From a virus: a stretch of DNA of 20,844 nucleotides. Below, in pieces: positions 6,320 to 17,375 of the stretch. The notes below the pieces were generated by a model. The model saw only the letters and a program-made list of their open reading frames with translations, was not told the DNA's origin and did not search any database. Location: IMG/VR virus record IMGVR_UViG_3300033149_000625, positions 1 through 20,844 of that record; one strand, given 5' to 3'. The first letter of the stretch is position 1; every line of letters starts with the position of its first letter. Made by a program: the position numbers and the translations under genes.

Positions 6320-7525
6320 TTACGCTCTAATTTCTGTTATTGTTATTGATGAGCTTAATGCTCCTCCATATCTCCTGTTACCGCCTGTGCCGTTAAAAGT
6401 TATACCTCCAGATATTCCATTGCCAGCTCTGACTTTAAAATCAATAGTGGATGTTGTGCCTGCAATCATATAATGGGATAACTGACAATTATTAAGAACA
6501 CCTGCATTATTTTCAAACTGACCTGAGCAGGCTAGCGCATCTGTATCTGAATCTTTGAATAAAGCAAGAACTCCATTTACTAAACTGTTTCCTCCTGAAA
6601 TTTGAGCTGATACTTCTATTTTTAATTTACTATTAGCGAATTTAGGTGTTATAGAAAGACTCATATACTGATCACCTTCATTGCTTTGAGGTATTGTATC
6701 ATTATTAGGTATAATAGTAGACCCAGTTGCAACCGCCCCAGTCTCAAAATTTACTGTTTGTAATGCACTATTTAGATCTGCATCTGATTCTAAATTAACT
6801 TGAATCCAGTTTGGTCCCTCGTACACTAGCTCTAAAGAATCAATACTAAACTCAAGCGTGGTATCTTGATTTCTAACTAAAACTATATTTCCACCGCTAG
6901 TGTCATTGTCCAGAACGGTTATTGTGCCATTGACTCCATTATTCTTTAAAAGCAATCTATCACCAACCGAGCCACCAGTTATAACATTTAAAGTATCATC
7001 AACATTACCTTCACCATTTAATCTAATGTATGATCCAGTATAGCTAATAGAACCAGATGAAATAGTTTGAATGATTGGTGGAGTAGTTAGCTTTTGATTA
7101 ATAGTTAAATTGTCAAAAGTACTATTTTCTGGATCATAATACAATTTCCAGTTCACAACATCAGTTAGGGCATTTCCTTCATTATTATCAGTTAAGGATT
7201 TGTAAAGTTTAGCTCCTCCAACCTCTCTTGTAATATCTCCTATATAATAATCAGTTGCAATTTCCCACTCTGGAATACCCTTTTGCATTATGTACGCAAT
7301 TTGACTCGTGTTTATGTAGTTCAATCCCTGAAACTCCTCTACTGCTGGCAGCTCATCACCAGATATAGTAGCATCGTTCCAACCTTCCTCAAAAGCTGCG
7401 TTAGCTTGCAATACATCTAAGTCACTACTTGGAATACCTAAGCCATCTTGCAATGATCCGAATTGTCCGTTGTTAGTTGCATTACCAGCAAATATTTTTT
7501 GATTTTTTCTTACTAAATTTACCAT
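6320..7525 (-). CDS. Tail fibre / receptor-binding protein 1
   Basis: 401 residues. The N-terminal 130 residues are paralogous to the fibre at 8002-9156: QKIFAGNATNNGQFGS, EGWNDATISGDELPAVEE, NYINTSQIAYIMQKGI, then AKLYKSLTDNNEGNALTD and a terminal NWKL. This part probably binds the baseplate. The last block, with its Y, G, LYK and W spacing, looks like a carbohydrate-binding (CBM5/12-like) module. The C-terminal 150 residues (FETGAVATGSTIIPNN, FANSKLKIEVSAQISG, FNGTGGNRRYGGALSSS, ITITEI) match a widespread beta-sandwich tip found in phage and prophage fibres. Its specific chaperone candidate follows 1 bp downstream. Confidence 0.85.
   Translation of the reverse strand: MVNLVRKNQKIFAGNATNNGQFGSLQDGLGIPSSDLDVLQANAAFEEGWNDATISGDELPAVEEFQGLNYINTSQIAYIMQKGIPEWEIATDYYIGDITREVGGAKLYKSLTDNNEGNALTDVVNWKLYYDPENSTFDNLTINQKLTTPPIIQTISSGSISYTGSYIRLNGEGNVDDTLNVITGGSVGDRLLLKNNGVNGTITVLDNDTSGGNIVLVRNQDTTLEFSIDSLELVYEGPNWIQVNLESDADLNSALQTVNFETGAVATGSTIIPNNDTIPQSNEGDQYMSLSITPKFANSKLKIEVSAQISGGNSLVNGVLALFKDSDTDALACSGQFENNAGVLNNCQLSHYMIAGTTSTIDFKVRAGNGISGGITFNGTGGNRRYGGALSSSITITEIRA
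7143..7210. repeat. Near-identical fibre segment, copy 1
   Basis: 68 bp that match 8774-8841 with four mismatches, counted by eye. On the minus strand it encodes the LYKSLTDNNEGN to NWKL block shared by the two fibres. Sequence on both sides diverges much more, so this piece was either recently exchanged between the two fibre genes or is under strong constraint. Confidence 0.85.
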
Positions 7526-8002: not shown

Positions 8003-9156
8003 TATTTTATTCCATAAAGTTTAAAAGTACCATCAAATGTTCCAGCACTAAAGAAAATTTGTATTCCATTTACTGGTTGGGTATTTAAGAAAAATACACC
8101 GTTACCCGAGATTATAACACTACGCCCTGCTGTATTAGCATCATAACTTGCTTGATATGAAATATGTTTATTCTTTAATGATGAGTCTAGCCCATAAATA
8201 TCAATACTGCTATTATATACTGACTGGGCTTGATTTCCTACCTGATTACCACCGCCGTTATCATTCAACACAATCTGACCATCAATATTATCATCATCTG
8301 ATGCATTCCCACCTCCTGTATGCCTGCCTGATAGTGCATATCTATAACCTGTATTTTGCCAAACGCCACCGTTGTCATTAGAAAACCTAATATTAAGATT
8401 CACCATATTATTAGATGGAGTAACGCCACTACAAACCAACTTAAAATCTGAGTAATCAGATAAAGGTAAATTAATAAATTCTATTGCAACCGATCCTGAT
8501 GCTACTTGCGTTTGCAATAAGTCATAACCCAATATTGCATTATGTAACTTCTCAGGAGTTAATGTTGTTGTGTCCTCATTTTCATTGTTAGCCTCTGTCT
8601 GAGTAGAGAGCCTATTTATACCCTCAAGAATTTCAGAAGAATTGTTTAGAATAGAATTGTCTAATTTATCTCCTGAGCCAATCACAGGAATTTCCCCATC
8701 TAAAGACCCAATGTTTTCAAATGCTGCTGTACCAAGACTACCAATAATGCCAATTGTATCTAAATCTATCAATAATTTCCAGTTCACAACATCAGTTAAG
8801 GGATTTCCTTCGTTATTATCAGTTAAGGATTTGTAAAGCTTAACAGTGCCAGTCTCTTTTACTATAGAATTTTCGTAGTATTTTGTGCCTGCATCATATT
8901 CTGCTATGCCCTCTTGAAGTAAATAGGCTATTTGGCTTGTCTCGATATAATGTAAAGCATTTTCTTCTTCCAAAGGCGGTCTTTTATCTCCGCTGATAGT
9001 GGCATCTTGCCAGCCCTGTAAGTACGCTGCTAGACTTTGTAGAACATCCAAATCATCACTTGTGTTTGGTGATAACGCTTGCGCAGACCCGAATTGGCCA
9101 TTCTGTCCACCGTCTTTAGCGAATATCTTTTGTGTTTTTCTTTCAATTTTAGGCAT
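8002..9156 (-). CDS. Tail fibre / receptor-binding protein 2
   Basis: 384 residues. The N-terminal domain (about 1-133) is shared with the fibre at 6320-7525: QKIFAKDGGQNGQFGSAQ, QGWQDATISGDKRPPLEE, HYIETSQIAYLLQEGI, VKLYKSLTDNNEGNPLTD and then NWKL. A short linker contains STQTEANNENEDTTTLTPEK. The C-terminal half (VASGSVAIEFINLPLSDY onwards to FFSAGTFDGTFKLYGIK) is a beta-rich domain of the type ending in FxxGTFxLYGI seen at fibre tips. The different C-terminal tips on similar N-termini suggest that the virion carries, or can swap, two receptor specificities. It overlaps the DUF2612 gene by 8 bp. Confidence 0.85.
   Translation of the reverse strand: MPKIERKTQKIFAKDGGQNGQFGSAQALSPNTSDDLDVLQSLAAYLQGWQDATISGDKRPPLEEENALHYIETSQIAYLLQEGIAEYDAGTKYYENSIVKETGTVKLYKSLTDNNEGNPLTDVVNWKLLIDLDTIGIIGSLGTAAFENIGSLDGEIPVIGSGDKLDNSILNNSSEILEGINRLSTQTEANNENEDTTTLTPEKLHNAILGYDLLQTQVASGSVAIEFINLPLSDYSDFKLVCSGVTPSNNMVNLNIRFSNDNGGVWQNTGYRYALSGRHTGGGNASDDDNIDGQIVLNDNGGGNQVGNQAQSVYNSSIDIYGLDSSLKNKHISYQASYDANTAGRSVIISGNGVFFLNTQPVNGIQIFFSAGTFDGTFKLYGIK
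8774..8841. repeat. Near-identical fibre segment, copy 2
   Basis: The partner of 7143-7210 (68 bp, four mismatches by eye), in direct orientation and in the same reading frame of the paralogous fibre gene. Direct repeats of this length could support homologous exchange or deletion of the genes between them. Confidence 0.85.
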
Positions 9157-9901
9157 CTATGACTTTATCATAAGTTAATATTTCGCCTTCTTTTGTGAAG
9201 CCGTCTGTATAATTTGTAAAACCTGTTATTGTGTTTGGAATTGCTGTTGCATTGTAATTAGTAAATCCAAACATTTTCTTATCTCGCTTTATTAAACCTC
9301 CCAATCCAACCCCCATAGGGCGAGGCAATAAACCCTTAACAAATGCAATAACTGCAAGATTAAGGTTAGGCCCAGTAACAAAATAATATATCTTCATCTT
9401 TTTAGTATCTGAAAGTATTAAATCAGCACCAAAATAGTTAAACAATCCTTCGTCAATTTCACCGTTACTATGATTAGAATTGTTCTGAACAATTCTAAGT
9501 TTCAACATAAATCTATAATCATCATCATTCAGTGCACCTGAGCTAAATATACTGTTATAACTTATGAACCCTCCCGAGTCTGTTAAATAGTTAGCGTAAT
9601 CAGTAAATCCAACTGTCGTATCTGTTCCTAGCGTATCATAAGAGGTCATTCCAAAGAAATCACCTGTTGTATTTATTGAACTAGAAAATCTGTCAGTTCC
9701 AATGTACTTACCCAAGACATCTAGCTGTACACCTACCGCCGATTCTAAATCATAACCATCTTGAACTTGACAAGCTATGTTATCACTTAACAGAGTTCTA
9801 ACATGTAGATCAATAGTAGCCTTAGCTTTCTCAAGCTTGTTATACTGGATTATAAGCAAATTAGTATAATACTCTATTGTACTTTCTAGCTCTATACTCA
9901 T
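9149..9901 (-). CDS. DUF2612 family baseplate protein
   Basis: 250 residues. The first 70 residues match DUF2612: EYYTNLLIIQYNKLEKAKAT, then VQDGYDLESAVGVQLDVLGKYIG. A later block has DDDYRFMLKLRIVQNNSNHS, typical of the region linking to baseplate J. The middle and C-terminal parts contain similar Gly/Tyr/Thr strings (FFGMTSYDTLGTDTTVGFTD, MFGFTNYNATAIPNTITGFT), probably beta-strands that face the fibres. Known: DUF2612 genes follow baseplate J in many simple myoviruses and probably fill the role of the gp48/YmfQ-type protein that joins baseplate and fibre. It overlaps the J gene by ATGA and the fibre gene by 8 bp. Confidence 0.8.
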   Translation of the reverse strand: MSIELESTIEYYTNLLIIQYNKLEKAKATIDLHVRTLLSDNIACQVQDGYDLESAVGVQLDVLGKYIGTDRFSSSINTTGDFFGMTSYDTLGTDTTVGFTDYANYLTDSGGFISYNSIFSSGALNDDDYRFMLKLRIVQNNSNHSNGEIDEGLFNYFGADLILSDTKKMKIYYFVTGPNLNLAVIAFVKGLLPRPMGVGLGGLIKRDKKMFGFTNYNATAIPNTITGFTNYTDGFTKEGEILTYDKVIDA

Positions 9902-11094
9902 AATATAGTTATATCTATTCTAGCATTATCAACAATCCATTTCTCGTCTTTAGTATCAGTATTTAAAAAATCTACATAACTGACCCCATCGTTTGAAATT
10001 TCAACATTTAAAGGAACTCCACCGCCACCAGTTGCATTAATACCATCTTGAGCTACGCAAGTTATCGCTGCTGTGTTGGCTGACTCCCCAATAGTAAAAT
10101 CAAGATTATCAGTTATATATTGCTTTATTCCATCCTCATCAAAACCTTGTGTTGGGGTTAGTTTTTGAATATCAAACCTAATATAAAGCTCTTTTGAGAT
10201 TGGACGATCAAAAAGTATTGTAAAGATACTACCGTTTACTGTTGTAATATCTACGGCTATTGCGCCTTTCATATCACAGCCAGCATTTTTTGTAAAGTAA
10301 ATTGCGTCTGCAATATCTGTATTCGCTCCACCCTCACATATTACCCATATACCGTGAGCTGGTATTCCATCGGCATCAATTACATCTGTGTAATTCTCAT
10401 AAACTCTAGCATCGGTTACACCATCAATATTTAATAAGTTGCCAGTTAGAGAATCTATAAAACCTTTTGCTCTGTTAGCTGTTGATCTAGTTGCTCTTAA
10501 TCTTAACTGCGAGTCTAACTCGCCATCAACCCCGACTTCTAAAACTCCTGTTGAGTTATCAATGTTAGTAACCCCTAGTACGACCGTAACAGGGTTTGTT
10601 ATCGTATTAGGTATTGTTGTAATTGATCCTAAGTCCTTAGCTCTAAAAGTTAAATTATACACGCCTGCACTAGGTGCATTGAAAGTATCCAATAAAATAA
10701 ATTCAGTTCCTGAGTCATCCGCCACCGTGTAACCCACTCCATCAGGATTATTTGCCTCTGCATCTAATCCATCTAGCGTTAGAGAGCGATCAACGGTTAT
10801 TTGTACTTGTTGCTGGGTAAATGTTGCGCCCTGTCTTTGAATACCCAACAAAGAAACCCTTTGATCTAATACAACTCCAATTGCTTGCTCAATATCAAAA
10901 CCAGAGTTAATTTGCTTTATAACCTCCAATAAATCTTCTACAGTTTGAGCATAAAGATTTATTAACTGTCCGTCTGGCGTGTTACTATCTACAATTATAT
11001 CATTGCCATAAATAAGCTTGTAGCCGTCTTCTAGTTTAGTTATTATTTCTTGTATTGTGTCAATGGTTAAACCGTTGGCATCTAATGTACTCAT
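9898..11094 (-). CDS. Baseplate wedge protein J (gp47-like)
   Basis: 398 residues. The family features appear in order: an N-terminal helical part with EIITKLEDGYKLIYG, SNTPDGQLINLYAQTVEDLL and IGVVLDQRVSLLGIQRQGAT; a beta region (YTVADDSGTEFILLDTF); and the diagnostic GVDGELDSQLRLRATRS with KGFIDSLTGNLLNIDGVTDA. The C-terminal part (FDRPISKELYIRFDI, IKQYITDNLDF) is also typical. J is the main wedge component of contractile baseplates. The ATG's first base is the last base of a 31-bp repeat, and no Shine-Dalgarno sequence is visible in front of it. Confidence 0.93.
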   Translation of the reverse strand: MSTLDANGLTIDTIQEIITKLEDGYKLIYGNDIIVDSNTPDGQLINLYAQTVEDLLEVIKQINSGFDIEQAIGVVLDQRVSLLGIQRQGATFTQQQVQITVDRSLTLDGLDAEANNPDGVGYTVADDSGTEFILLDTFNAPSAGVYNLTFRAKDLGSITTIPNTITNPVTVVLGVTNIDNSTGVLEVGVDGELDSQLRLRATRSTANRAKGFIDSLTGNLLNIDGVTDARVYENYTDVIDADGIPAHGIWVICEGGANTDIADAIYFTKNAGCDMKGAIAVDITTVNGSIFTILFDRPISKELYIRFDIQKLTPTQGFDEDGIKQYITDNLDFTIGESANTAAITCVAQDGINATGGGGVPLNVEISNDGVSYVDFLNTDTKDEKWIVDNARIDITIL

Positions 11095-11124
11095 AATGTA
11101 AAAAGTTTTGACATTTTACTTGAC
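11094..11124 (+). repeat. 31-bp repeat, copy A
   Basis: 31 bp identical to 14247-14277 except for C at 11119 against G at 14272. It contains TTGACAT-like direct repeats 12 bp apart and an imperfect inverted repeat with AATGT/ACATT ends. It lies in the 45-bp gap between the gp25-like and J genes, abutting the J start codon. No other copy was noticed in the window. Confidence 0.9.
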
Positions 11125-11148
11125 ATATAAAAAACAGACTTATATATT
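11120..11148 (+). promoter_or_regulatory. Sigma70-like promoter, antisense to tail genes
   Basis: TTGACA at 11120-11125 is a full match to the -35 consensus. After a 17-bp spacer, TATATT at 11143-11148 matches the -10 consensus at five of six positions. It points rightward into the gp25-like and spike genes, which lie on the other strand, and no plus-strand gene follows. It may be a chance match, an antisense promoter, or a relic of a lost cassette like the one at 14312-14910. Confidence 0.45.
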
Positions 11149-11496
11149 AACGCTATCACTAACTGGATTAGTTGAGTAAATAGTTTTTACGCTGTAATTT
11201 ATTGTTAAATTTCTGCTGGTGGAATTAAAATTGAGGTCTAAATTAATGACCTCTGTAACTCCATCAGCTTTTAACATAACTGTTCTTATCTCTTCTCTTA
11301 GTGGTGCAGCTTGTGATCTTTTGGTTAGTCTATTTTTCCAGTCAACGCCTGCTTCAATATCAAAAAAACAATCTCCTTTCCATTCTTGAAGTTTTGTTTT
11401 TAGATTTTGAATAAGTGCTAATTGACTTGACTTGTAAGATGATTTACCTTTTCCAAAAGTCCAATCGTTATTTGCGTCTATTGCTCTAATTATCAT
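11140..11496 (-). CDS. Baseplate wedge protein, gp25/W-like
   Basis: 118 residues. Family features: DWTFGKGKSSY near the N-terminus, ALIQNLKTKLQEWKGDCFFD (27-46), GVDWKNRL (50-57), a helix with PLREEIRTVMLKADGVTEV and a C-terminal beta pair (RNLTINYSVKTIY). Known: gp25-like proteins form the wedge core with J and connect it to the first ring of the sheath. The position between spike and J is the usual one. The gene starts by ATGA overlap with the spike gene; 45 bp separate its end from J. Confidence 0.88.
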   Translation of the reverse strand: MIIRAIDANNDWTFGKGKSSYKSSQLALIQNLKTKLQEWKGDCFFDIEAGVDWKNRLTKRSQAAPLREEIRTVMLKADGVTEVINLDLNFNSTSRNLTINYSVKTIYSTNPVSDSVNI

Positions 11497-12194
11497 TTTA
11501 ATAAACTCCCAACTCTAGTTGATAAAGTTGCTAAATCACTAGCGGTTGTACCATCAATTGGAAGCAGTCCAGAAATGGGGTCAACTGTCTTTAAATTAGT
11601 AATTATTGTAATTAATTCGTCAATAACATCTTTTAGATTCTCTGCTGTATTCTTTAGTTCTAGTTTATCATCTACCACAATAGAACCACCACTTGAATTT
11701 AGCAAGCTTATTTTTGTACTGTCAAGAGAAATCTTATTATTTAAGTAATTTAATTCTGTTGCCTCGTTATTATAGTCTGTAATAAGATTAATCTGGCTCC
11801 TAATACCAACTAAAGCAATGGCATCCGAGAAATCATGAGCCCTCAGTGTATTAGGGCGTTGCACCAATCCATCAACTAACCAATTATCTAAATCTCTGTC
11901 ATTAAAAAACACTAAACAAGTATCGCCTTTATTAATAGGAATAGTTAATCCACCATTAGCACCTTTATTAATAATAGTTGGGCATTTCTCCAATAGTGAA
12001 TAATTAGTTAATATTTCGCCATCTGTTGTATTTCTAACGGATTTATCAACTAGCTTTATGTCTGCTGTTTGTTCATCTGAATAAAATGCCTCAACAATAC
12101 CTACTCTATGGCAATTAAATTCATACAATAAATCTTCGATAGCTCCGTCAATTACATCTTCTAATTCTGGCTCTGTTCTTCTTCCTTTGCTCAT
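11493..12194 (-). CDS. Gp138-type membrane-puncturing spike protein
   Basis: 233 residues. The N-terminal domain (about 1-125) shows an OB-like pattern: HRVGIVEAFYSDEQTADIKL, LEKCPTIINKGANGGLTIPI, then GDTCLVFFNDRDLDNWL and RAHDFSDAIALVGI. This is the signature of the Gp138 N-terminal domain of simple contractile tails. A short beta-helix-like segment follows (LNYLNNKISLDSTKISLLN, GGSIVVDDKLEL), which would form the trimeric needle shaft, and then a C-terminal helical tail. The protein would sit at the tip of the tail tube and pierce the outer membrane. I see no PAAR-type tip or HxH metal motif. Confidence 0.85.
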   Translation of the reverse strand: MSKGRRTEPELEDVIDGAIEDLLYEFNCHRVGIVEAFYSDEQTADIKLVDKSVRNTTDGEILTNYSLLEKCPTIINKGANGGLTIPINKGDTCLVFFNDRDLDNWLVDGLVQRPNTLRAHDFSDAIALVGIRSQINLITDYNNEATELNYLNNKISLDSTKISLLNSSGGSIVVDDKLELKNTAENLKDVIDELITIITNLKTVDPISGLLPIDGTTASDLATLSTRVGSLLK

Positions 12195-13096
12195 ACTCCT
12201 TTTAATCCTCCTAGTAATTTATTGCCAATAAATAAATTTAATGCTGTTTTGCAGTCTCCATTGACCGCTCCCGATATGACACCACTATGTCTTAATCCCA
12301 TAACCTTATATTGACCGTCAAACTTTGGGTTAAATTTTGATTGAACTTCTGCCAGTTGTCCAACTTGTATTCTTGGCTCAAAAATCATATCCATTACTAG
12401 GTCCGTGCCCTGCCTCTGTGGAGTCCCTAATAGTCCTGAGTCAGCATTTATTAATGGCACTTTTCCGCCTGTGGTTTTTATATATTCATTTTCATTTAAG
12501 ATATTAACTTTCTCAAGATCAATAAAAACCTCATCCTTGTAATTCTTCTTCAATAAGTAAAAGTTGTTGCCATTCAAGGCTGTTGATGTTTTGGATGCCC
12601 CTTGAATATCGCCAACTTTACCTTCTGTTGTTCCAGTTATGCCTGCTATTATGGTTTTAGCTATATCTTTAAAGCTTGTGCCGCCTGCTACTGTCTCATT
12701 TATATTTGAGTTATAGGCACCTAACGAGCCATCTTGAGCGTTAATATAGGTTATAACATCTGCACCTTGTCTATATGAATAAGCTTCAAGTAAATAGCCT
12801 GTAAATATTGTTGATAAATCATCATCTCTATTTAATGCAGTTTCGTACCCAGCTTGCAAAATAACTTTCTTTCTATTACCTGATACATCATTAATGCTAA
12901 ACCTATTCTGAAATATTAAACTCCTGTTAGTCTCGCTAAGGTTATAAACCCTAAAAGTCGCACTGTTTAAACTGCTCTGCGTGCTTCTAGCGACATCTAG
13001 CTCTAGGGTTAAAGGGCTTCTTATTTCAATAGCCTGCTCTTGCCCCTGTGCTGTGTTAATTTGAACTGTTAATTTATATCTTCTTTGGAACTTCAT
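12191..13096 (-). CDS. Baseplate hub protein, gp27-like
   Basis: 301 residues. The N-terminal strand pattern (RRYKLTVQINTAQGQEQAIE) and PLTLELDVARSTQSSLNSAT followed by FRVYNLSETNRSLIFQ match hub proteins of small myoviruses, where a tube-like fold uses VxNLSExTR motifs. Then come KKVILQAGYETALN, STIFTGYLLEAYSYRQGADV and ITYINAQDG, all characteristic. The C-terminal half (MDMIFEPRIQVGQLAEVQS, GQYKVMGLRHSGVISG) continues the family pattern. It would form the trimeric hub under the tube and hold the spike. It is coupled by ATGA overlap to the plug gene upstream and the spike gene downstream. Confidence 0.85.
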   Translation of the reverse strand: MKFQRRYKLTVQINTAQGQEQAIEIRSPLTLELDVARSTQSSLNSATFRVYNLSETNRSLIFQNRFSINDVSGNRKKVILQAGYETALNRDDDLSTIFTGYLLEAYSYRQGADVITYINAQDGSLGAYNSNINETVAGGTSFKDIAKTIIAGITGTTEGKVGDIQGASKTSTALNGNNFYLLKKNYKDEVFIDLEKVNILNENEYIKTTGGKVPLINADSGLLGTPQRQGTDLVMDMIFEPRIQVGQLAEVQSKFNPKFDGQYKVMGLRHSGVISGAVNGDCKTALNLFIGNKLLGGLKGV

Positions 13097-13434
13097 TTGT
13101 TATAAAAATCAGTTTCTACTTGTTCAACCTCTGCCTCTGTTAATAAAAACATTCGCACCCTATCAGTTGAGAAGTCATCAATAAATAATGGTTCGCTTAA
13201 ATCATCTGTTAAAATACTAATACCAAAAGGGATGATATTTTGATAACTTCTTAATATATTCGTCCCAGTTACTAACCTTGCACCATTTAAGATAAAATCC
13301 CCAAAAGTAATATTATAAAACCAGCCTTGTTGTTGATCGCTATATTCAAGCACTAGCTCGAAGTTTTGATTGTCCTCTGTTACAACATCAAATCTTTGTT
13401 TTGGATCTTGTGATATTTCTGTTATCTGTTTCAT
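13093..13434 (-). CDS. Baseplate hub plug protein, Pam3 gp18-like
   Basis: 113 residues. The beta-rich pattern includes QRFDVVTEDNQNFELVLEYS, GWFYNITFGDFILNGARLV, TNILRSYQNIIPFGISIL and a C-terminal FSTDRVRMFLLTEAEV. Known: cyanophage Pam3 gp18-type plug proteins show the same order (NFxLxLxY, WxxxI, GxxLV, LLxxxE) and close the tube just above the spike. It lies between the Dit-like and hub genes as expected. Its start is 7 bp after the upstream stop, and its end overlaps the hub gene as ATGA. Confidence 0.75.
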   Translation of the reverse strand: MKQITEISQDPKQRFDVVTEDNQNFELVLEYSDQQQGWFYNITFGDFILNGARLVTGTNILRSYQNIIPFGISILTDDLSEPLFIDDFSTDRVRMFLLTEAEVEQVETDFYNK

Positions 13435-13441
13435 CTGATTA

Positions 13442-14239
13442 TTAATTAATTTTTAAAAAAGATTTACCGCCTTCTTTTAGATCAAATAAAACTGATGAAT
13501 TCCTTTGTGTCCCATTTGCCGTCCCTTGGTCAACTTCTTCTGCGCTCTGATTCGTTAGTCTGCCTTGGGTTTCCTTAATGTCAAAATCAACTAATTCAGT
13601 TGTTGTAATTCTAAACTCTTTTAATGTTACTGCAAAATCAGTAATATATTTATTATCTCCTTGTGTTGTGATGATGTTTTCAATAGCATAATCACTTAAA
13701 AAGCCAAAAGGTGTTTCAACTGAAACAAGTTGTTTAGCACTATAAAGAGCTTTAAAGAAATTGTAAGCTCTAGCTTGGTTGTTATCTGGTGGATTTAATT
13801 CTTTGTATGCTTGATATAAATCAACCCCTGTTCCTATTGTTTGATCAATTGAGTCAACAACACTTACTTTATTAGCTTCTATTGTTCTATTTAATTGTGT
13901 CGCAAATCCTGTTACAACTGGAATATAGCTATTAATTATTGTTAGCTTCTCCGCAAGCTCTGTTACTTCTGATTTAGCACCTGCCTGTCTGTCTACTAAC
14001 TCACCAACAAAACCCCTTAATGTAAATCTTTCTGGCTTTATAGCAATATGATCTTGCCTTGTTGAATTGTCTTCTACAAAGTGATCCGTTATCTCTGCTT
14101 GTAGCTCTGATTTATGTTCTTCAAAAATATCAAACTCAAAGCCTGCAATGCCTAAGTTTACAACTGGCGAGACAACATATTTATTTACTAGATTGTTTGT
14201 TATTTCTGCTGTTTCTAGCGTGTTAAAATCTTTAGTCAT
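13442..14239 (-). CDS. Dit-like tail/baseplate protein
   Basis: 265 residues. Residues about 30-80 carry the Dit-like N-terminal signature: GFEFDIFEEHKSELQAEITD, then HFVEDNSTRQDHIAIKPERF and TLRGFVGELV. A helical region follows, then a second beta domain (QLVSVETPFGFLSDYAIENI, DFAVTLKEFRITTTEL). The C-terminal 50 residues are polar and probably flexible. Known: in simple myoviruses this protein forms the ring at the tail end, after the tape-measure gene. Here the moron (14312-14910) separates it from the tape-measure gene. A 31-bp repeat ends 8 bp before its ATG, and no Shine-Dalgarno sequence is visible. Confidence 0.8.
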   Translation of the reverse strand: MTKDFNTLETAEITNNLVNKYVVSPVVNLGIAGFEFDIFEEHKSELQAEITDHFVEDNSTRQDHIAIKPERFTLRGFVGELVDRQAGAKSEVTELAEKLTIINSYIPVVTGFATQLNRTIEANKVSVVDSIDQTIGTGVDLYQAYKELNPPDNNQARAYNFFKALYSAKQLVSVETPFGFLSDYAIENIITTQGDNKYITDFAVTLKEFRITTTELVDFDIKETQGRLTNQSAEEVDQGTANGTQRNSSVLFDLKEGGKSFLKIN

Positions 14240-14246
14240 AATTTAA

Positions 14247-14277
14247 TAATGTAAAAAGTTTTGACATTTTAGTTGAC
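14247..14277 (+). repeat. 31-bp repeat, copy B
   Basis: The partner of 11094-11124 with one mismatch (G at 14272). It lies between the divergent starts of the Dit-like gene and the moron. After the shared 31 bp the two sites differ: copy B continues into the dyad described at 14273-14297, copy A into an AT-rich stretch. Confidence 0.9.
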
Positions 14278-14297
14278 TTTTAGAAAGTCTAAGTCAA
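14273..14297 (+). promoter_or_regulatory. Nested dyad, candidate operator of the moron promoter
   Basis: Two overlapping inverted repeats: TTGACTT (14273-14279) with AAGTCAA (14291-14297), and GACTTT (14275-14280) with AAAGTC (14284-14289). They cover the -35 element and the whole spacer of the promoter at 14273-14301, so a repressor bound here would block the polymerase. The regulator is not encoded in the window as far as I can tell. Confidence 0.55.
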
Positions 14298-14301
14298 TAA
14301 T
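14273..14301 (+). promoter_or_regulatory. Sigma70-like promoter of the moron
   Basis: TTGACT (14273-14278), a 17-bp spacer and AATAAT (14296-14301) each match the sigma70 consensus at five of six positions. Transcription would start near 14308, only a few bases before the ATG at 14312, so the first gene would be nearly leaderless or start at the second ATG (14327). Confidence 0.6.
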
Positions 14302-14311
14302 GTAATTTTTA

Positions 14312-14611
14312 ATGACCAGAAAACAAATGTGTAAAATACAATTATTTCATGGCAGTAGTACTATTCATTCAAAAAACCTGAATGAATTAAAAAAAGGTGC
14401 ATGGTTTACAACGAAACTGTGGCATGCCTTTAAGCTAGCTGAAAGAACTAGCAAAAGAGACGGTGGCAACCCTTTTGTTATTTGTGTAGAACTTCCAGAA
14501 TCTCTGATAGATAGAGTTATTGGAAGGGATATACCTAATTATAGATTAAGCAAAGATTATAAAGCTTTGCGAATCTGTGAATATTATTTAAATAAAATAA
14601 ACTTAACATGA
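14312..14611 (+). CDS. Moron protein with ADP-ribosyltransferase-like N-terminal motifs
   Basis: 99 residues on the strand opposite to all surrounding tail genes. IQLFHGSS (9-16) is followed 15 residues later by GAWFTTKLWHAFKLAER (29-45) and then by a strand PFVICVELPESLID. Known: small ADP-ribosyltransferase-fold families (DUF3990, ART-PolyVal and KptA/PARP-like) share HGS/T, then an aromatic-S/T-T turn, then an A-x-x-x-A helix and a strand. His13 and Phe32 would correspond to the first two NAD-site positions. The third catalytic residue is not certain. At 99 residues it is a minimal domain and might be inactive or a binding protein. Alternative start Met6 (14327). It is coupled to the next gene by ATGA. 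Confidence 0.6.
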   Translation: MTRKQMCKIQLFHGSSTIHSKNLNELKKGAWFTTKLWHAFKLAERTSKRDGGNPFVICVELPESLIDRVIGRDIPNYRLSKDYKALRICEYYLNKINLT

Positions 14612-14910
14612 AAAAAATACTTATAACTTTATTATTTTTTGCGTTTTATTGCAATAGTTCTTTTGCCAGAACATCTTTTGATGAAAAGCTGGCTAAACTA
14701 GATGAATTAATTTCACAAGATCGATATACACCTAAACAAATGCAAATACTTATACAGATGGGTAGTGAAGGTTACACAAATTGTTTCCAATCGTCAACTG
14801 GTGCTATATGTAAATTTAGCGACCAATTCTGCTTAATAAAGAATAATAATGGTTTATCCCTTAAATGTCTAAAAGAATCTGATTTAGATGAATTAATATC
14901 CGCTATTTAA
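14608..14910 (+). CDS. Moron secreted protein, unknown function
   Basis: 100 residues. The signal peptide MKKILITLLFFAFYCNSSFA is of classical type, with cleavage likely after SFA. The mature protein, about 80 residues, is helical at the start (FDEKLAKLDELI, then YTPKQMQILIQMGSEGY) and has four Cys (C-x8-C, then C-x10-C spacing), likely forming two disulfides in the periplasm. I recognise no family. Its ATG overlaps the stop of the ART-like gene as ATGA, so the two are made together; immunity, export partner and surface modification are all possible roles. The 3' end overlaps the tape-measure gene by 8 bp on the other strand. Confidence 0.65.
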   Translation: MKKILITLLFFAFYCNSSFARTSFDEKLAKLDELISQDRYTPKQMQILIQMGSEGYTNCFQSSTGAICKFSDQFCLIKNNNGLSLKCLKESDLDELISAI

Positions 14911-15538: not shown

Positions 15539-16305
15539 GCTATCAATAAAAATTTAGCAAATCCCCTTGCCATTCCTGCTATGGTGTCAATAATTGCTTT
15601 GCCGTTATCCTTTATCCATTTAAAGAATTGTTGAACTAATTTATTTAATTCTGGCGCAATCTTTGCGACTGCTTGATCTTTTAAGGCTTTAAATCTTAAT
15701 TGTAGGGCTTTAATTGATGTTCCTACTTTATCAATATCCGCCCTTTGTCTTGGGTTTAAAAAAGTATTCTCACTTAATAATTCAAACTCTTTCCTGCTTA
15801 ACCTAAGTAAGTTAATGAAGTCTGGCGATAAACCTATTTGACTAATTAGATTAGTAGCAGTTGCAGGGTCTAAACCCTGAATAGCTCCCCTTAATTGTTC
15901 TATTACTCCAAAAGCATCTTGACCAGCAACATCAACGCCTAATAACTGGAATGGTGAAATGTCACCCTGTCCAATTCTTATTGCTGCTATATTCTTCTGA
16001 ACATTTCCTATTGACTGGGCTATTTGATCAGCACTCAATGCAAGATTAGATAATTGCCCTGCTTGTTGGAATTGTTGAAGTTTTTGGATTGATAAGCCTG
16101 TTTGTGCATTAAGATTTTGCAAAGAAACAACGCCTTTTAAGGCACTATTAATAAACCTATCTAAGCCAACTACTGCACCAGTAAAAGCAGCGGATACTAA
16201 TAAAAGATTACCTCTTAATGACTTAATGCCAGCATCAACTTTATTGATCTGTTGAGTGTCTGCTTTTACGCCTAATTGTATAAATAATTCACCTATGCTA
16301 GCCAT
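15505..16305 (-). CDS. Tape measure protein, N-terminal part (frameshifted)
   Basis: 266 residues. The N-terminus MASIGELFIQLGVKADTQQI is typical for the family. A coiled-coil/helical region follows with QTGLSIQKLQQFQQAG, LSADQIAQSIGNVQKNIAAI, QLLGVDVAGQDAFGVIEQLR and KDNGKAIIDTIAGMARGFAK. The frame then runs out of pattern (LLIAWLAWKTALRY) and stops. Adding one T to the T5 run (15548-15552 on the plus strand as A5) gives KFFIDSLVGMENGI and one 467-residue protein through 14903. At about 0.15 nm per residue that predicts a tail near 70 nm. Its start overlaps the chaperone gene by 8 bp. Confidence 0.88.
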   Translation of the reverse strand: MASIGELFIQLGVKADTQQINKVDAGIKSLRGNLLLVSAAFTGAVVGLDRFINSALKGVVSLQNLNAQTGLSIQKLQQFQQAGQLSNLALSADQIAQSIGNVQKNIAAIRIGQGDISPFQLLGVDVAGQDAFGVIEQLRGAIQGLDPATATNLISQIGLSPDFINLLRLSRKEFELLSENTFLNPRQRADIDKVGTSIKALQLRFKALKDQAVAKIAPELNKLVQQFFKWIKDNGKAIIDTIAGMARGFAKFLLIAWLAWKTALRY

Positions 16306-16570
16306 TTTTATTTAAATTATGATATTCTTCTTCATATTCACTACAAAAGCCTTCATATTCCATCATCTTTAGAACCCAAGAAATATCCATTTTATTTATA
16401 ACTTCTGGATTGCCCCCTCCGTAGCCTGCCTTTGCTAACCTTAATAAAATAACTTCTGCCTCATCAGCATTAATTTTTATTTTTGGCTCTCTTGGCTTTT
16501 CATCAATCGGAGTCCGCTCAATTTTGAAAAGAGGGTTTTGAAAAAAGGGGCAAGGTTCACTTTTAAGCAA
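16298..16570 (-). CDS. Tail assembly chaperone, frameshift extension (T-like part)
   Basis: An open frame of 90 codons in the -1 frame relative to the first chaperone, overlapping it by 94 nt. It has no ATG before the middle of the protein and a stop (TAA) directly before its first codon (TTG), so separate initiation is unlikely. After a slip at the heptamer 16540-16546 it would add 80 residues, starting QNPLFKIERT. The sequence includes a Pro/Lys linker (DEKPREPKIKINADEAE), a helix with LLRLAKAGYGGGNP, and DISWVLKMMEYEGFCSEYEE. Known: in lambda and most long-tailed phages the G-T fusion binds the tape measure while the tail forms. Confidence 0.82.
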   Translation of the reverse strand: MLKSEPCPFFQNPLFKIERTPIDEKPREPKIKINADEAEVILLRLAKAGYGGGNPEVINKMDISWVLKMMEYEGFCSEYEEEYHNLNKNG

Positions 16571-16923
16571 GCAATTACTATATGGTAATAATCACCTCTT
16601 GCATCCTCTGAGTTAAAAGTTGATTTAGTTATTTTCTCGCCGTTATAAGTTGATCTCTTTAAACAGTTAAATATTTCACCATTAACTTTTTCGCTAACAT
16701 CTAACGAAATAACCATGTCGATCAACGAATCTAAAGCCCCACTTTTAACAGCTTTTCCCATGTCGTCTTTTACACCTGATAGTAATTTATCAATATCAAT
16801 TTTTGATATTTCAACTCCGCTATCTTTTATAGCCCCAAGAACCGCAACACGCAGTCTTGAGGACTCTATAAAATCAGCCATGTTAATAATTACTTCTGCG
16901 CCACTTTCTGTTTTAAATTCCAT
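16477..16923 (-). CDS. Tail assembly chaperone (G-like)
   Basis: 148 residues. The gene lies between the tail tube and tape-measure genes, the fixed position of tail chaperones. The N-terminal part is small and helical (ESGAEVIINMADFIESSRLR, then SGVEISKIDIDKLL), with SLIDMVISLDVSEKV in the middle. It continues with DYYHIVIACLKVNLAPFFKT, closely resembling the conserved LKxNFxPFF block of such proteins. The slip site codes for the FF at residues 127-128. Without the slip, translation ends after 148 residues; with it a 208-residue fusion results. Its start overlaps the tube gene's stop as TAATG. Confidence 0.85.
   Translation of the reverse strand: MEFKTESGAEVIINMADFIESSRLRVAVLGAIKDSGVEISKIDIDKLLSGVKDDMGKAVKSGALDSLIDMVISLDVSEKVNGEIFNCLKRSTYNGEKITKSTFNSEDARGDYYHIVIACLKVNLAPFFKTLFSKLSGLRLMKSQESQK
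16540..16546 (-). promoter_or_regulatory. Programmed -1 frameshift slippery site
   Basis: The heptamer T_TTT_TTC in the chaperone frame has the X_XXY_YYZ form, and the overlapping C_CCT_TTT (16543-16549) is also slippery. It lies inside the 94-nt overlap of the two chaperone frames, and the second frame needs exactly a -1 shift. No stable downstream hairpin was obvious by eye in this AT-rich sequence. Confidence 0.75.
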
Positions 16924-17375
16924 TATAAGCTTCTAGGTGAGTTAGTAAATTTAATGTTGTAAATAGCTAATGATTGGTCTGTGTTGCCTTCCACATTAGA
17001 AACTGTCTCAACTCTTTTTGAGAAAACGCCACCAGATAAATCATAAATGTCGTTGGTTACATTTCCTAAGCCATCACCAACTTTTTTAATTACTTGGCCA
17101 GTAATAGTTACAAATCCAGAGAAATCCGCCTTCATGGAAATTAACCTAGAGTTTAAAGTCTTATCGTCTTTAGAACCCCTTAGAACTCTTAGAACTAAGT
17201 CAGCTTGATCGCCTGTTTCATTTAATGCAAAAATAGAATTGCCGTTTTTACCAGTCTTAACACCAACTAATTCATTAGGATAAGTTAAAGACCCAACATC
17301 TCCATCCCCTAAATCTATTAATGGTATACCATCAATAGATATTGTATCATTACCTGTTAAACTTTGAGTAGCCAT
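16923..17375 (-). CDS. Tail tube protein
   Basis: 150 residues. The pattern is that of contractile-tail tube proteins of the DUF3277-like group: SLTGNDTISIDGIPLIDLGD, GDVGSLTYPNELVGVKTGKN, GNSIFALNETGDQADLVLRV, LRGSKDDKTLNSRL, then FSGFVTITGQVIKKVGDGLG and YDLSGGVFSKRVETVSNVEG. The ending QSLAIYNIKF is also characteristic. Many copies would stack as hexameric rings inside the sheath. It is preceded by a 25-bp gap whose minus strand has TTAAATAAATT before ATG; no Shine-Dalgarno sequence is visible although the protein must be made in large amounts. Confidence 0.87.
   Translation of the reverse strand: MATQSLTGNDTISIDGIPLIDLGDGDVGSLTYPNELVGVKTGKNGNSIFALNETGDQADLVLRVLRGSKDDKTLNSRLISMKADFSGFVTITGQVIKKVGDGLGNVTNDIYDLSGGVFSKRVETVSNVEGNTDQSLAIYNIKFTNSPRSL

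Follow-up and report, generated by a model that had tools for sequence, protein, structure and literature searches.

A repeat at virion-operon junctions of a phage is a candidate promoter-operator for antisense accessory genes

The stretch of phage DNA analysed here (the window; 20,844 nt, positions 1 to 20,844 of IMG/VR record IMGVR_UViG_3300033149_000625) carries two copies of a repeat, denoted A and B, directly before the starts of late genes, and a third copy, H, was found in another contig of the same virus. We consider it probable, judging from conservation and position, that this repeat is a conserved promoter-operator for accessory units transcribed against the late operon, rather than a recombination scar. 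The copies, their positions and conservation, their co-occurrence with antisense genes and the exchange of cassettes at H can be read directly from the sequences compared. The features of the two sites in the window are as follows.

11093..11133, plus strand: site A, repeat copy 1; kept in the sister species, diverged in the relative L021
11097..11113, no strand: 17-bp palindrome of A, TGTAAAAAGTTTTGACA, located by pattern search
11120..11148, plus strand: predicted sigma70-like promoter of A (TTGACA 11120-11125, 17 nt, TATATT 11143-11148)
9898..11094, minus strand: J, baseplate wedge protein, the late gene abutting A (phrog_6)
11140..11496, minus strand: gp25-like baseplate wedge protein, flanking A on the side away from J (phrog_120)
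14246..14286, plus strand: site B, repeat copy 2; 44/46 conserved in the sister species
14250..14266, no strand: 17-bp palindrome of B, located by pattern search
14273..14301, plus strand: predicted sigma70-like promoter of B (TTGACT 14273-14278, 17 nt, AATAAT 14296-14301)
13442..14239, minus strand: Dit-like tail protein, the late gene beside B (PF21821 / phrog_817)
14312..14611, plus strand: first accessory ORF at B, 99 aa, no family match
14608..14910, plus strand: second accessory ORF at B; 100 aa, N-terminus resembling a signal peptide

A first-pass annotation of this DNA had described a 31-bp repeat, 11094-11124 and 14247-14277, with a single differing base. This was borne out, and the similarity reaches further, to 41 nt at 90% identity (11093-11133 and 14246-14286). 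The longest repeat with at most one mismatch spanned 32 nt, outside a duplicated fibre segment, while 200 dinucleotide shuffles scored in the same way reached at most 21 nt. (The fibre segment is an 87-nt block, 7143-7229 and 8774-8860, 86% identical between two neighbouring fibre-like genes, a partial duplication.) Only two copies of the repeat are present in the window, and both lie directly before a minus-strand gene start, as the annotation had stated: A touches the ATG of J, and B lies 7 nt before the Dit-like ATG.

On inspection the 31-bp unit, real as it is, is better described as a 17-bp palindrome with a second TTGAC 12 bp on from the first (hereafter the box), of the general form TGT(A/C)AAAACTTTTTACA, in which the palindrome is followed by the second TTGACA/T. 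Read on the plus strand, the window copies consist of the palindrome TGTAAAAAGTTTTGACA, 6 nt and TTGACA/T, and the second, outer TTGAC is the predicted -35 of a sigma70-like promoter opposing the late genes. In the sister species A and B have perfect palindromes (TGTAAAAAGTTTTTACA), and H has the window's form. As RNA the box folds weakly, which speaks for its being recognised as DNA and led to the rejection of a hairpin formed by the sense RNA; a leader-peptide reading of the box (MSKLFTL...) was rejected because stops interrupt the frame in the sister species. An unrelated 28-nt near-perfect palindrome, ATCTATTAATGGTATACCATCAATAGAT, lies at 17313-17340 within the tail tube gene.

The plus-strand promoters that the annotation had placed at both copies were recovered by prediction, with a match of 11/12 at A, among the two best of the window, and of 10/12 at B. 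The window contains 38 TTGACW sites, only two of which have a -10 matching at 5/6 or better; as A and B both score 5/6, they are these two. The -10 of A overlaps the last gp25 codons, and the sister species retains the promoter hexamers of B. Behind A there is no plus-strand gene, as annotated, and behind B there are two.

Contig G016, which matches the window at 100% identity across 5,296 nt, supplies the third copy for the window's virus, site H, located before the head maturation protease gene. A 32-kb relative representing the sister species (G002) has copies at H, B and A, which are its exact palindrome matches. Two weaker ones, at 1752 and 2991, precede additional genes in the terminase-portal interval. 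The weaker copies, in which the palindrome overlies TTGACA, are reversed in orientation relative to the downstream genes, and site 2991 has no good -10 by the scoring rule used. Every match in G002 with at most one mismatch is intergenic, and a reversed control pattern gave zero matches there. The search for further copies thus yielded at least three in the window's virus and five in the sister species, and none of the strong ones lies within a gene. Searching the whole of IMG/VR with the gapped box pattern matched 10 stretches, 9 of them in the window's phage group, including L021, an independent relative at 67% identity. The stray tenth match (L166) lies between divergent HTH genes of a distant prophage lacking related proteins and was rejected as chance. 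Also set aside was the exact 19-mer AAAAAGTTTTGACATTTTA, whose 10 IMG/VR matches are unrelated sequence, with flanks that differ from the box by 8 mismatches in 30 bases.

G002 shows two further features. The sequence TACTAGGACAAA, allowing at most one mismatch, occurs in it four times, always on the sense strand: at portal codons 2-5, at site H, in the ribosome-binding region of the major head protein and at site A (L047 3358-3369, 6283-6294 and 7861-7872; L048 4820-4831). The gap at its site A (L048 4795-4889) also contains, on the antisense strand, a strong hairpin with a GAAA cap, which is absent from the window's shorter gap.

Between the window's virus and the sister species the element is identical at 38/40 positions at A, 44/46 at B and 71/71 at H, as against 57-73% identity at fourfold sites (57-63% as the comparison for A), and conservation at A and B extends up to the late-gene ATG. 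Strong conservation of A, with no gene following it, argues that A is not a decaying remnant, and the site is probably functional today. All nine sites scored (those of the 90% clade, of L021 and H of the 75% clade) carry, 16-18 nt from the outer TTGAC, a -10 that matches at 4/6 or better, compared with 21% in AT-rich background; as the sites share descent, these counts cannot be treated as independent. At site A three lineages have three different -10s: TATATT after 17 nt, TAAAAT after 16 nt and TATATT after 16 nt. By the same rule no -10 passes at B of the 75% clade (G006, G007), where the palindrome is degenerate.

The gap between the tape measure gene and Dit holds antisense genes in the window and in the 90% and 75% clades. 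The first ORF in the window, which may alternatively start at the ATG at 14327 to give 94 aa, has no match in Pfam, PHROGs or PADLOC and no phage relative was found for it; it has an FHGSS motif near the N-terminus and is possibly ADP-ribosyltransferase-like. In the position of the second ORF, secreted-like proteins of 105-110 aa are encoded in the sister species and in the 75% clade. Site H bears one of two antisense cassettes, an ORF of 28-29 aa, hydrophobic, in L168 and G016, or one of 48-59 aa in G002, G004 and G017. These cassettes are non-homologous, both stand beside an unchanged 71-nt block, and the replacement ends at that block; the ORFs of 28-59 aa may be chance reading frames. The H allele of L168 and G016 shows few differences, although the contigs are 88.8% identical overall. 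In four unrelated antisense cassettes, at B and H, the ATG lies 61-62 nt from the same reference base before TTGAC, and the window's B departs from this spacing because an additional ORF comes first. The proposed association of the repeat with accessory cassettes is upheld at B and H, with alternative cassettes at H; at A none was seen among the relatives examined.

Accessory genes differ or are missing among relatives. Neither box nor antisense gene was found at Dit or J in the closest box-less relatives, the 65% clade (L072-L079), or in the more distant relatives inspected; there, Dit comes after the tape measure gene and J after gp25. The protease junction of two 65%-clade contigs likewise lacks both, and a sense gene occupies it. 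Since box and antisense gene are missing together, the boxed gaps are most simply read as derived, and the boxed junctions do look like a derived state. Within the 75% clade, B combines its degenerate box with secreted-like antisense genes, and H has a diverged box and no antisense ORF. Over 83 relatives the median length of the gp25-J gap is 7 nt, and the three largest gaps inspected, in distant relatives, contain sense-strand genes; none of the relatives examined showed an antisense gene at site A. Elsewhere, a 51% relative (L086) has a 569-nt insertion between the plug and hub baseplate genes, and in the window two overlapping frames before the tape measure gene (16298-16923) resemble a tail-chaperone frameshift pair. 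Relatives in genome_contigs were at 41-52% identity only (Dyadobacter, a Thalassobium MAG and a Gastranaerophilales MAG), and a search for tRNAs as a hint to the host found none.

The placement of the -10, the spacing of 61-62 nt to the ATG and the cassette replacement at H that stops at the conserved block favour a plus-strand promoter-operator. A DNA-binding protein would probably recognise the 17-bp palindrome, and the outer TTGACA/T, 6 bp past it in the window copies, would supply the -35 hexamer for a sigma70-type promoter that opposes the late operon. The module would sit at stop/start junctions of this operon, ahead of the head protease (H), of Dit (B) and of J (A), and express small opposite-strand accessory cassettes under one shared control; the two weaker copies of the sister species precede the extra genes in its terminase-portal interval. 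Promoter activity, protein binding and shared regulation are in this scheme what we infer from the arrangement of the sites. Site A, now with no recognisable gene, may be an unoccupied platform under selection or may initiate a non-coding antisense transcript. A more elaborate version, in which a phage regulator, perhaps a small HTH protein, coordinates a regulon of antisense cassettes and gene-less A yields an antisense RNA with a regulatory role across the baseplate genes, seems rather unlikely. Box-bearing clades (G002, G004, L168, G006) do encode a small HTH protein of 76 aa between terminase and portal, which was not seen in the window, itself incomplete. As the regulator this protein was retained as a lead only: weak relatives occur in G009 and G014, and G009 has no box at Dit.

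The annotation had offered two readings of the repeat, a binding site controlling late transcription and a recombination sequence by which cassettes enter. The binding-site half of the former fits best, given the number of copies and the intergenic position of the strong ones. Its other half, a sense-direction element for protease, Dit and J (a late promoter, a translation-start element or a stoperator-like site) comparable to the Start-Associated Sequences of Cluster K mycobacteriophages, is suggested by the closeness of the box to the sense ATG: in both clades as well as L021, each A, B or H copy lies 0-8 nt before it, a placement that antisense control alone does not need. The conservation running up to this ATG, and that of A where there is no cassette, would suit such an element as well. 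However, the same late genes lack the box in the 65% clade and beyond, and as these relatives do without it, the box is probably not a sense-direction control of late transcription. By eye, no acceptable sense-direction sigma70 hexamer pair was seen at the sites, the box has no Shine-Dalgarno sequence and folds weakly as RNA, and the copies at 1752 and 2991 of G002 face the wrong way; overall we regard the sense element as unlikely. The recombination reading, with A as an empty or former insertion site, draws on the derived look of the boxed gaps, on the sharp edges of the H cassettes, one of them at the conserved block, on the near-identity of the L168 and G016 alleles and, in the sister species, on TTTGTCCTAGTA, present at both A and H 26 nt downstream of the outer TTGACA, as though a cassette leader had been retained at A. 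Yet the box marks the 5' end of cassettes only, with no second copy found at the 3' end, which leaves this reading unsupported; swaps at H leave the box untouched, and homologous recombination in flanking DNA would suffice for them. For A, a former insertion is conceivable as history, but no antisense insertion was found at gp25/J, where 83 relatives were measured and the three largest gaps inspected, and the site is constrained rather than decaying, so that entry of cassettes through the repeat appears quite improbable.

A further alternative is a small antisense RNA that regulates structural genes and is initiated by the element at A (and H). The transcripts predicted from A and H of the sister species begin with TTTGTCCTAGTA, which is complementary to the ribosome-binding region of the major head protein (one end mismatch) and to portal codons 2-5 (one mismatch), and the A transcript forms its GAAA-capped hairpin at -12.8 kcal/mol (z -3.8). 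The window record shows no such complementarity, nor does the conserved leader of the 75% clade, no Rfam family matches, and the reading arose post hoc; we hold it to be very improbable. The promoter-operator for antisense cassettes accordingly remains our preferred reading.

Several known systems resemble the arrangement in part. Site-specific recombination would place copies at both cassette ends; here the box marks the 5' end alone, and the window has only two copies. Start-Associated Sequences of Cluster K mycobacteriophages are repeats within a few nt of start codons, with 11-19 copies near non-structural genes and a 13-bp Shine-Dalgarno-like core (AGGAG); their extended forms are 17-bp imperfect inverted repeats, varying in sequence by subcluster and proposed to be protein-binding sites (PMC3203893). 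The box shares their closeness to start codons, at 0-8 nt from the late-gene ATG, but has no such core, and its 3-5 copies lie near structural genes with a predicted opposite-strand promoter. Stoperators of Cluster A phages (L5, TipsytheTRex) are asymmetric 13-bp sites, more than 20 per genome, which follow the direction of transcription and bind a known monomeric repressor (PMC9283540). They likewise scatter one operator sequence over short intergenic gaps; the sites described here differ in being palindromic and few (3-5).

Phage morons are independently expressed genes inserted in late operons, such as the ant moron of P22-like phages (PMC2629481). Like them, the genes described here are extra genes at a late-operon junction, in which relatives vary or have none, with an apparent promoter of their own, and at the gap between the tape measure gene and Dit the insertion into the operon is evident from comparison with related phages. 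Unlike morons, one conserved palindrome-plus-promoter module is common to several junctions, and one copy is gene-less. Morons are usually described singly, each with its own promoter; here one conserved putative operator-promoter recurs at several virion-operon junctions while the genes behind it change, which suggests that accessory genes may plug into a shared control line. Site H, with its alternative cassettes, and site A, a predicted promoter with no gene, are natural test cases for the gain, loss and control of such cassettes.
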